Of a DNA stretch of 64,000 nucleotides, positions 5,255-6,195 are shown piece after piece. Position numbers and translations under genes: made by a program. A model generated the notes under the pieces. It had not been told where the DNA came from, did not search any database, and saw only the letters and a list, made by a program, of their open reading frames with translations. Positions within the stretch are counted from its first letter, which is position 1; each line of letters begins with the position of its first letter. Origin of the DNA: Candidatus Gastranaerophilales bacterium (lineage in GTDB: Bacteria > Cyanobacteriota > Vampirovibrionia > Gastranaerophilales > Gastranaerophilaceae); the NCBI GenBank assembly GCA_944325665.1, contig CALVAY010000001.1:186001-250000 (forward strand), written 5' to 3'.

Positions 5255-5285
5255 TAATAGAATGTCCACTTGGGACATTCTATTA
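5255..5285 (+). promoter_or_regulatory. Perfect 13-bp hairpin in the rpmG leader
   Basis: Arms TAATAGAATGTCC (5255-5267) and GGACATTCTATTA (5273-5285) pair perfectly around a 5-base loop (ACTTG). No T-tract follows, so it is not a standard terminator. Its place between a promoter and rpmG suggests an mRNA leader structure or a DNA operator; the arms could be a protein-binding palindrome. The role is unknown. Confidence 0.55.
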
Positions 5286-5327: not shown

Positions 5328-5495
5328 ATGGGTATTAAAGGCAAAAACGACAGGATGGTTGTACTAGCATGTGAAGAATGCAAGGAAAGAAACTATACAA
5401 CAACAAAAAATAAAAAGACACTAAAGGAAAGAATGGAACTTAAAAAATATTGCCCAAGGTGTCAAAGACACACTGCTCATAAGGAAACCAAGTAA
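5328..5495 (+). CDS. rpmG: 50S ribosomal protein L33
   Basis: 55 aa, the usual L33 length. It starts [19 protein letters not shown] and has two zinc-binding pairs, CEEC and CPRC, so it is the C+ (zinc-containing) form; the C-terminus HTAHKETK matches the family. The frame is open from 5262, but ATG 5328 is preceded by AAAGGAGAAAAA, and the upstream codons cover the leader hairpin. It is the first gene before tRNA-Trp, secE and nusG. Confidence 0.93.
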
Positions 5496-5514
5496 CTTTT
5501 TGGCGCCGCGCTAA

Positions 5515-5610
5515 GTTGCGTCTCAAGTTCAGTTGCGAGCGAACCGTCGGGTTTGCGTTAGTTCAAAATATGTTCTACCAACTGAGCGAATTGAAAAGTT
5601 AATATTATGA
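5515..5610 (+). repeat. 96-bp tRNA-derived tandem repeat, upstream copy 1
   Basis: Identical to the next unit (5611-5706). The first 21 bases (starting GTTGCGTCTCAAG) match the 5' end and D-arm of the downstream tRNA-Trp except for three bases. Bases 5572-5585 are GTTCTACCAACTGA, the exact reverse complement of the tRNA D-arm at 5721-5734. A central hairpin GCGAACC-GTCG-GGTTTGC is also present. Each unit is therefore an imperfect inverted repeat built from tRNA 5' sequence. Confidence 0.9.
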
Positions 5611-5706
5611 GTTGCGTCTCAAGTTCAGTTGCGAGCGAACCGTCGGGTTTGCGTTAGTTCAAAATATGTTCTACCAACTGAGCGAATTGAAAAGTTAATA
5701 TTATGA
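5611..5706 (+). repeat. 96-bp tRNA-derived tandem repeat, upstream copy 2
   Basis: Exact copy of 5515-5610. It ends in TTAATATTATGA directly before the real tRNA (GTT at 5707-5709, tRNA from 5710), so the same 3' flank precedes copy 2 and the functional tRNA. Exact identity means the duplication is recent or maintained by conversion. The inverted D-arm fragment lies at 5668-5681. Confidence 0.9.
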
Positions 5707-5709
5707 GTT

Positions 5710-5782
5710 GCGTCCTTAGTTCAGTTGGTAGAACGTCGGTCTCCAAAACCGGATGTCGAGGGTTCGAGTCCTTCAGGGCGCG
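5710..5782 (+). tRNA. trnW: tRNA-Trp (CCA anticodon)
   Basis: Cloverleaf assigned by hand. Acceptor GCGTCCT pairs with AGGGCGC (one G-T), D-stem GTTC/GAAC, anticodon stem TCGGT/ACCGG with loop CTCCAAA giving anticodon CCA, T-stem GAGGG/CCTTC around TTCGAGT. The discriminator is G and the 3' CCA is not encoded. It lies between rpmG and secE, a common place for tRNA-Trp. Flanking repeats resemble its 5' half upstream and its 3' half downstream. Confidence 0.95.
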
Positions 5783-5851
5783 ATTTCAAAAGACGGTTTC
5801 GGTATCTGTGCAAAAGCACATGTCGAAGGGAATTCGAGTCTTGCGAGATTC
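5782..5851 (+). repeat. 70-bp degenerate tRNA 3'-half repeat, downstream copy 1
   Basis: Starts GATTTCAAAAGACGGTTTCG and ends in a tRNA-like 3' end (ATGTCGAAGGG, then AATTCGAGTCTTGCG) that lines up with the tRNA-Trp variable region, T-loop and acceptor arm. A small hairpin GTGC-AAAA-GCAC takes the place of the anticodon arm. The acceptor pairing is lost, so this is a tRNA relic or tRNA-like element rather than a working tRNA. Confidence 0.8.
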
Positions 5852-5920
5852 GATTTCAAAAGACGGTTTCGGTATCTGTGCAAAGCACAAGTCGAAATGA
5901 ATTCGAGTCTTGCGGGGCAC
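5852..5920 (+). repeat. 69-bp degenerate tRNA 3'-half repeat, downstream copy 2
   Basis: Same start as the previous unit; the two differ at scattered positions and by one base in length. It ends TTCGAGTCTTGCGGGGCAC and is followed again by GATTT, the sequence that follows the real tRNA. The T-loop core TTCGAGTC is kept in the tRNA and in both relics. The array ends just before the secE ribosome site. Confidence 0.8.
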
Positions 5921-5964
5921 GATTTATAAAAAAGATTAGAAGCCAACTAAAATAAAGGAAAAAT

Positions 5965-6195
5965 ATGGCAAATACAACAAAAAAACAAACAAACGAGTCA
6001 AATAAAAGCTTCAAGGAAGATTTAATTACCTACTTTAAAGGTGTTAAAGCTGAATGGGGCAAGATTTCTTGGCCGCAAAAAAACCAAATTATATTTGAAA
6101 CAGGCGTAGTTTTGTTTGTGGTTGTGGCTTTTACCATAATTGTCTATTTAATGGATATCATCTTTAAAGGACTGTTAGGGCTTTTATCTCACTAA
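5965..6195 (+). CDS. secE: Protein translocase subunit SecE
   Basis: 76 aa, the short single-span SecE form. The conserved amphipathic segment reads YFKGVKAEWGKISWPQKNQII, followed by one membrane helix (TGVVLFVVVAFTIIVYLMDII). It clamps SecY in the SecYEG channel. AAAGGAA lies eight bases before the ATG. It precedes nusG as in most bacteria. Confidence 0.95.
   Translation: MANTTKKQTNESNKSFKEDLITYFKGVKAEWGKISWPQKNQIIFETGVVLFVVVAFTIIVYLMDIIFKGLLGLLSH

Follow-up and report, generated by a model that had tools for sequence, protein, structure and literature searches.

Hairpin repeats that copy the adjacent tRNA flank about half of the tRNA genes in a group of gut bacteria related to cyanobacteria

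The tRNA-Trp gene of a Gastranaerophilales bacterium lies between rpmG and secE, the latter followed by nusG, and is enclosed on both sides by short repeats that copy parts of it, some of them in inverted orientation. What are these repeats, and how did they arise? The stretch of DNA analysed here, called the window, measures 64 kb and comprises bases 186001-250000 of contig 1 of a MAG of 1.65 Mb in 30 contigs. Its tRNA-Trp array has upstream (U) and downstream (D) units with the following parts:

5328-5495, plus strand: rpmG (ribosomal protein L33), upstream neighbour of the array (Pfam PF00471, 2e-22)
5514-5609, plus strand: upstream unit U1, 96 bp, 100% identical to U2
5518-5535, plus strand: direct near-copy of the tRNA 5' end in U1 (repeat family D4, 86% over 22 nt)
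5539-5556, plus strand: core hairpin of U1, GCGAACC-GTCG-GGTTTGC, which covaries across congeners
5572-5585, plus strand: inverted exact 14-nt copy of the tRNA D-arm in U1 (complement of 5721-5734)
5592-5604, plus strand: leader motif of U1, TGAAAAGTTAATA, present in U1 and U2 and nowhere else in the 64-kb window
5610-5705, plus strand: upstream unit U2, 96 bp, adjoining the tRNA, 100% identical to U1
5635-5652, plus strand: core hairpin of U2 (core hairpin pattern)
5668-5681, plus strand: inverted exact 14-nt D-arm copy in U2 (complement of 5721-5734), pairing with the tRNA D-arm in the predicted minimum-energy RNA fold
5688-5700, plus strand: leader motif of U2 (motif match)
5709-5783, plus strand: tRNA-Trp (CCA), host of the array (ARAGORN; Rfam RF00005 at 5710-5782, 65.9 bits)
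5784-5853, plus strand: downstream unit D1, about 70 bp, from the tRNA 3' half (repeat and alignment with D2)
5807-5820, plus strand: hairpin of D1, TGTGC-AAAA-GCACA, which is TGCGC-AAAA-GCGCG in some congeners
5854-5922, plus strand: downstream unit D2, about 69 bp (repeat and alignment with D1)
5965-6195, plus strand: secE, downstream neighbour of the array (Pfam PF00584, 4.9e-15)

The array is the top tandem repeat of the window and is not a product of chance. The window contains 18 inverted repeats as against 3-7 in shuffled sequence, those outside the array being AT-rich or short-loop and terminator-like, and among the listed inverted repeats of at least 11 nt only that of the array is neither. 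A general excess of palindromes is thus ruled out as the explanation, as is tandem duplication of a whole tRNA, since the window holds one scoring tRNA. Above the Rfam threshold the tRNA alone was matched at the array, with no other RNA family and no T-box. The initial annotation had described two identical 96-bp upstream units with an inverted exact 14-nt D-arm, and two downstream units of about 70 bp resembling the 3' half of the tRNA, all set between rpmG and secE. We recovered each of these, with an upstream phase shifted by one base (the choice of phase in a tandem repeat being arbitrary), a downstream spacing of 69-70 nt and both flanking genes identified by their Pfam domains; the misfit it had noted to whole-tRNA duplication, attachment sites and simple decay is borne out as well. 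D1 and D2 both carry the tRNA 3' half, differ from each other and have no clear inverted T-arm; the Trp locus is a typical upstream array and an atypical downstream one. A separate perfect 13-bp palindrome at window positions 5255-5285, before rpmG (TAATAGAATGTCC/GGACATTCTATTA), has similar sequences in congeners and may be a terminator or leader signal.

The array is one instance of a much larger, genome-wide arrangement. In the flanks of 37, 31 and 32 tRNA genes in three genomes (G000, G002 and G261), copies of tRNA nucleotides 1-14 recurred upstream at a period mostly of 89-105 nt, and behind each came about nucleotides 7-25 in inverted orientation; downstream flanks carried inverted T-arms followed by copies of the 3' end, the arms matching the host tRNA. 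In G000, the genome of the window, the design is rebuilt from each host tRNA at about half of the other tRNA genes, which rules out an array unique to tRNA-Trp. An upstream unit consists of a copy of the 5' end of its host tRNA (about nucleotides 1-14), a hairpin core, an inverted D-arm (about nucleotides 7-25) and a leader with TTGAAAATTRAATA. A downstream unit is its mirror image: a trailer, often containing the tRNA terminator, leads into an inverted T-arm, after which come a hairpin core and a 3'-end copy. Units measure about 70-145 bp, the copied tRNA ends are only about 11-20 nt long (nucleotides 1-14 or the last 15 or so), many tRNAs and genera have their breakpoints at identical places, and most units are present as near-identical tandem copies. 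The initial annotation had sought the explanation in the operon mRNA, which is too narrow for a design found at about half of the tRNA genes here and in related genera.

Uniform tests were applied to nine genomes, all apparently MAGs, with about 25-37 tRNA genes each. Units were present at 87 of 178 tRNA genes over six genomes of families f1 and f2 (20/37, 16/30, 16/32, 6/27, 16/28 and, in G204, 13/24), so that about half of the tRNA genes in this group of cyanobacterial relatives from the gut are flanked by hairpin repeats copying the tRNA. In the opposite-side controls over all nine genomes, no inverted D-arm was found downstream and no inverted T-arm upstream, and a control with flanks swapped between tRNAs gave an expectation of at most 0.7 per genome. 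Across the 64-kb window and the loci read in G000, the core hairpin pattern and the leader motif hardly occurred away from tRNA loci. This confinement, together with a sole other DNA match in G000 that lies at another tRNA, excludes a dispersed repeat family.

The arrangement is restricted to one lineage. Units were present at none of 78 tRNA genes in three related genomes (0/27, 0/24 and 0/27) representing genus g2 of the same family (G018), family f4 of the same order, and another order. In class- and phylum-wide scans with a strict pattern for one D-arm type, matches came from 37 of 382 and 27 of 386 genomes, respectively, every one a member of family f1 or f2. The pattern understates the spread because it sees one kind of D-arm only. 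The matching genomes include G047, a member of genus g2.

Orthologous Trp intervals in related species were collected by a secE search and a genus search, the relatives being assemblies of Candidatus Gastranaerophilales or Galligastranaerophilus from different projects. Arrays occupy the Trp locus in nearly all members of the genus in varying numbers, with one U and three D units in L008, two and two in L009, two and one in L011, one and zero in L007, and none in L005. The last comes from a MAG of 75% completeness and is weak as an ancestral empty site. At more distant Gastranaerophilales loci (L014-L023) the operon contains a tRNA-Trp gene without units, and the Trp array is therefore a genus feature that turns over; orthologous tRNAs in general gain and lose units between congeners. 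Since U and D numbers vary freely, the idea that both are halves of one split tRNA-like fold was set aside. The hairpins themselves are conserved as structures. A 19-pair structure, traced in ten distinct Trp U units, is paired in 97.9% of cells and shows nine double changes, with A-U to G-C alternation at two pairs of the core hairpin, and its covariation score was reached by none of 500 shuffles; the Trp D hairpin (TGTGC/GCACA versus TGCGC/GCGCG) is 98.7% paired with four double changes, a score reached by 4 of 500 shuffles. These counts include shared ancestry and are to be taken as support, not proof. The cross-genome comparison proposed in the initial annotation thus finds an array that congeners keep at varying copy number with compensatory changes in its hairpins, and the case it had held against itself, relatives lacking conserved pairing, is not what we see.

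We hypothesize that the units belong to an undescribed, order-level family of short non-coding palindromic repeats, confined to the ends of Gastranaerophilales tRNA genes, which copy the arms of their host and amplify in tandem, and we put the probability of this reading at about one half. Some process would place a core within the D-arm or T-arm of a tRNA gene, by insertion or by copying at that point; it would duplicate the adjoining tRNA end with its flank and so restore the gene, and it would also copy the arm in inverted orientation by strand switching. The units would then amplify in tandem and become homogenised, and upstream hairpins may be kept because a self-closed hairpin prevents the inverted D-arm from trapping the tRNA. 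The reading is supported here by the anatomy, the side-specificity, the lineage restriction, the tRNA-specific arms, the partly shared cores, the covariation of the Trp hairpins and the sense-strand bias of upstream units described below. No autonomous element for the units was found.

The main argument for spread between loci is that cores and arms have different histories. Between tRNA-Phe and a tRNA-Met of G218, the D cores are almost the same (score 80, the next best being 44 and 95% of shuffles scoring 15 or less), whereas the inverted T-arm and the 3' end are those of the respective host; the tRNA-Phe core also closely resembles one in G261. Leaders of U units at different tRNAs of the same genome reach a score of at least 22 in 27.5% of pairs compared with 0.9% of shuffles, and U cores do so in 5.4% of pairs compared with none, the likeness between tRNAs thus being far beyond shuffles for leaders and weaker for cores. 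Most U cores are specific to their tRNA, which makes independent origins possible. The leader motif TGAMAAKTDAATA has 35 matches in the 1.65 Mb of G000, about 31 of them in U units of tRNAs, versus 5 for the reversed control, and within the 64-kb window occurs in U1 and U2 only. We take this motif (e.g., window 5592-5604, or TTCTTTGAAAATTGAATA near the end of L290) to resemble the boxA antitermination element of rRNA operons of other bacteria. Two further sequences were seen in passing. TTTAGATT, apparently not tRNA-derived, recurs just 5' of the inverted D-arm at several tRNAs (U cores of G204, G218 and G261), and in L112, just upstream of tRNA-Pro(TGG), the palindrome CAGTGGTA...TACCACTG resembles a U unit built on a Gly-type D-arm and is possibly a trace of transfer between tRNAs.

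The most serious competitor, which we nevertheless regard as doubtful, is mutation in place. DNA polymerase would switch templates at the hairpin-forming arms of the tRNA, producing an inverted copy together with a tandem duplication of the gene end, and correction of quasi-palindromes would keep the arms matched, with neither a mobile element nor a function involved. Such a process agrees with units built throughout of local tRNA sequence, partly inverted as from double template switches, with the mostly tRNA-specific U cores and with the near-identical tandem copies, and palindrome correction could mimic compensatory changes. It does not account for cores and leaders common to different tRNAs, above all the D core at the two G218 tRNAs, or for identical breakpoints at many tRNAs and genera, or for the better folding of U units in the sense strand, and it would have to be limited to one lineage and to tRNA genes. 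Relics of repeated slippage, suggested in the initial annotation, likewise fail to explain the shared cores, the compensatory hairpin changes and the strict side-specificity of the inverted arms.

Folding of the RNA bears on a possible role of the units. Relative to shuffles, 50 U units had a mean z of -2.5 in sense and -1.9 in antisense, with the sense strand better in 36 of 50 (p=0.0008), whereas 27 D units had equally strong structure (z -2.8) and no strand bias. The bias fits an RNA-level role or constraint upstream, and we conclude that U units are, or were, under constraint at the RNA level; D units give no such sign. A role as decoy or processing signal, as the initial annotation suggested, is conceivable. 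In equilibrium folds of a U unit joined to its tRNA, the inverted D-arm is paired to the D-arm of that tRNA (median 28.7 cross pairs, at least 8 in 98% of the 50 units), and the predicted joint fold is often 5-20 kcal/mol better than both parts apart. The whole array of the window is predicted to fold likewise, in line with the folding check that the initial annotation had proposed. The direct arm diverges from about nucleotide 14 onwards (4.0 mismatches in nucleotides 15-21 versus 0.7 in nucleotides 8-14), and a stretch of the inverted arm is thereby predicted to stay unpaired and available as a toehold.

From these folds one could read a cis-antisense RNA switch, in which the inverted D-arm in the pre-tRNA leader either closes on its own direct copy, leaving the tRNA free, or pairs with the tRNA D-arm and traps it, so that folding of the leader sets the rate of tRNA maturation. 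We consider such a switch unlikely. The predicted cross-pairing, the toehold, the sense-strand bias and an inverted D-arm that is nearly invariant among congeners of the Trp units would all suit it. On this predicted pairing covariation is uninformative, as the tRNA does not vary. Against the switch, the energies come from equilibrium models, and any inverted copy would pair in this way. Units gained and lost at orthologous tRNAs, and lacking in G018, are dispensable. A run of T precedes the unit at 27 of 42 sites with downstream copies, and many D units therefore probably lie beyond the transcript, although in the operon of the window both U and D units would be part of the mRNA. Promoter-like sequence is visible by eye upstream of the U arrays in L439 and L290. 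Because a unit is transcribed before its tRNA, it may have closed its own stem by the time the tRNA emerges, and we favour the reading of the self-closed hairpin as a safety device that would make a parasite tolerable over a switch, because units come and go between species. Somewhat less probable still is regulation on a genome-wide scale, in which about half of the tRNA genes would transcribe toehold-like hairpins with an antisense D-arm and the maturation of many tRNAs at once would be set by one general signal (temperature, magnesium or an RNA chaperone, for instance).

None of three enzyme families tested accompanies the repeats. Y1 (RAYT) transposases were absent from the array-bearing genomes G000, G002, G261 and G204, and reverse transcriptases from G000, G002, G213, G218 and G204. 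Tyrosine recombinases are ubiquitous, and G204 has only two, strong full-length matches which both look like XerC/D. As none of these three families tracks the arrays, all were rejected as the array maker.

The ends of tRNA genes are classic attachment sites, and the units might be regarded as scars or attachment sites of phages or integrative elements, a reading that we consider very improbable. Two phage-type integrases in G000 (C18:28061-28678 and C4:110414-110878) adjoin the array-bearing tRNA-Met (L118) and tRNA-Leu(GAG), and one archaeal tRNA gene is preceded by a 5' tRNA fragment that a mobile element left behind (PMC3293823). Against this stand the 13 of 24 array-bearing tRNAs of G204 with its two tyrosine recombinases, the short copied ends, and the inverted D-arms or T-arms and tandem hairpin cores, which classic sites do not have. 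A phage origin was rejected on the two unit-specific patterns, neither of which was matched in viral contigs; the bare D-arm pattern, which also fits ordinary tRNA genes, says nothing on this point. In phage records no match spanned the Trp array, the best match being a tRNA-Trp gene.

An artefact of assembly or binning is hardly credible, for although all sources are MAGs, U1 equals U2 in the window and contigs end in arrays, the arrays occur in six sampled genomes from different projects, lie inside long contigs (e.g., G204 C2, 227 kb) and have differing copies (D1 and D2 of the window), and array-free genomes of the same class are clean in the same tests. The arrays do leave their mark on assemblies. 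In G000, 12 of 37 tRNAs lie within 400 bp of a contig end where 0.54 would be expected, an excess as such arrays would cause, and contigs of two congeners start or stop inside the Trp array (L006, L084). Contigs of G000 itself end inside arrays at L290 (C10 end), L439 (C29 end) and L304 (C29 start), with tRNA-Asp, tRNA-Arg(TCT) and tRNA-Pro(GGG) arrays. As tRNA-Asp is missing from the 37 tRNAs found in G000, arrays probably hide tRNA genes from short-read assemblies, and given MAG sources and a U1 identical to U2, the exact copy number at the Trp locus is insecure. Other contig ends of G000 (L288, L309, L312 and L316) have GC-rich stretches crowded with imperfect, AAGCTCGCTTGCCGAGC-like palindromes that overlap one another, and no tRNA is visible there; these are a second repeat type.

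If the reading as a family of palindromic repeats is right, two families of abundant gut bacteria bear repeats rebuilt from the adjacent tRNA, on both sides and as mirror images. It would raise the questions of which enzyme copies target arms in inverted orientation, how essential tRNAs work beside strong antisense copies, and whether tRNA maturation is controlled in cis. For genomics, short-read assemblies are probably interrupted at tRNA genes by the arrays, with the consequence that MAGs misreport array copy number and some tRNA genes.

No description of such arrays was found in the open-access literature, a coverage outside which most subscription papers and bioRxiv preprints fall; the arrangement is accordingly without a precedent found, as distinct from proved absent. 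Several known systems share parts of it. In T-box leaders, a leader RNA is able to pair with tRNA, as is predicted here, but here the leader belongs to the tRNA gene itself and complements its D-arm, and Rfam found no T-box. In organelle genomes, partial tRNA duplication and decay leave partial copies beside the gene; the arrays have such copies, but also mirror symmetry, inverted arms and covarying hairpins. REP/BIME sequences, associated with RAYT (Y1) transposases, are bacterial imperfect palindromes amplified as tandem arrays. The units are likewise tandem palindromes, but with host-specific arms and at tRNA flanks only, with no dispersal in non-tRNA intergenic regions of the 64-kb window and the G000 loci read, and no RAYT in the four array-bearing genomes named above. 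The five genomes without reverse transcriptase give no sign of a retro-element. Elements integrating at tRNA genes, and the tRNA fragments they leave (PMC3293823), share a copied tRNA end by which the gene is restored, and a direct repeat of the tRNA end was indeed found; the units differ in having no genes, a length of about 70-145 bp, inverted arms and a presence on both sides of about half of the tRNAs, and the number of integrases does not match the number of sites in G204. Repetitive hairpin-forming and double-hairpin elements of sponge and fungal mitochondrial DNA are short non-coding hairpins thought to be mobile (PMC2800124), and like the units they are often tandem, have stems with compensatory changes and lack a known enzyme. 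They are dispersed in intergenic regions and genes with a common sequence, whereas we found tandem short hairpins with compensatory stem changes at tRNA ends only, with host-specific arms and not one consensus at unrelated sites. These mitochondrial elements (PMC2800124) and the REP/BIME palindromes are the nearest in behaviour, and neither fits arms rebuilt from each host and confinement to the ends of tRNA genes.
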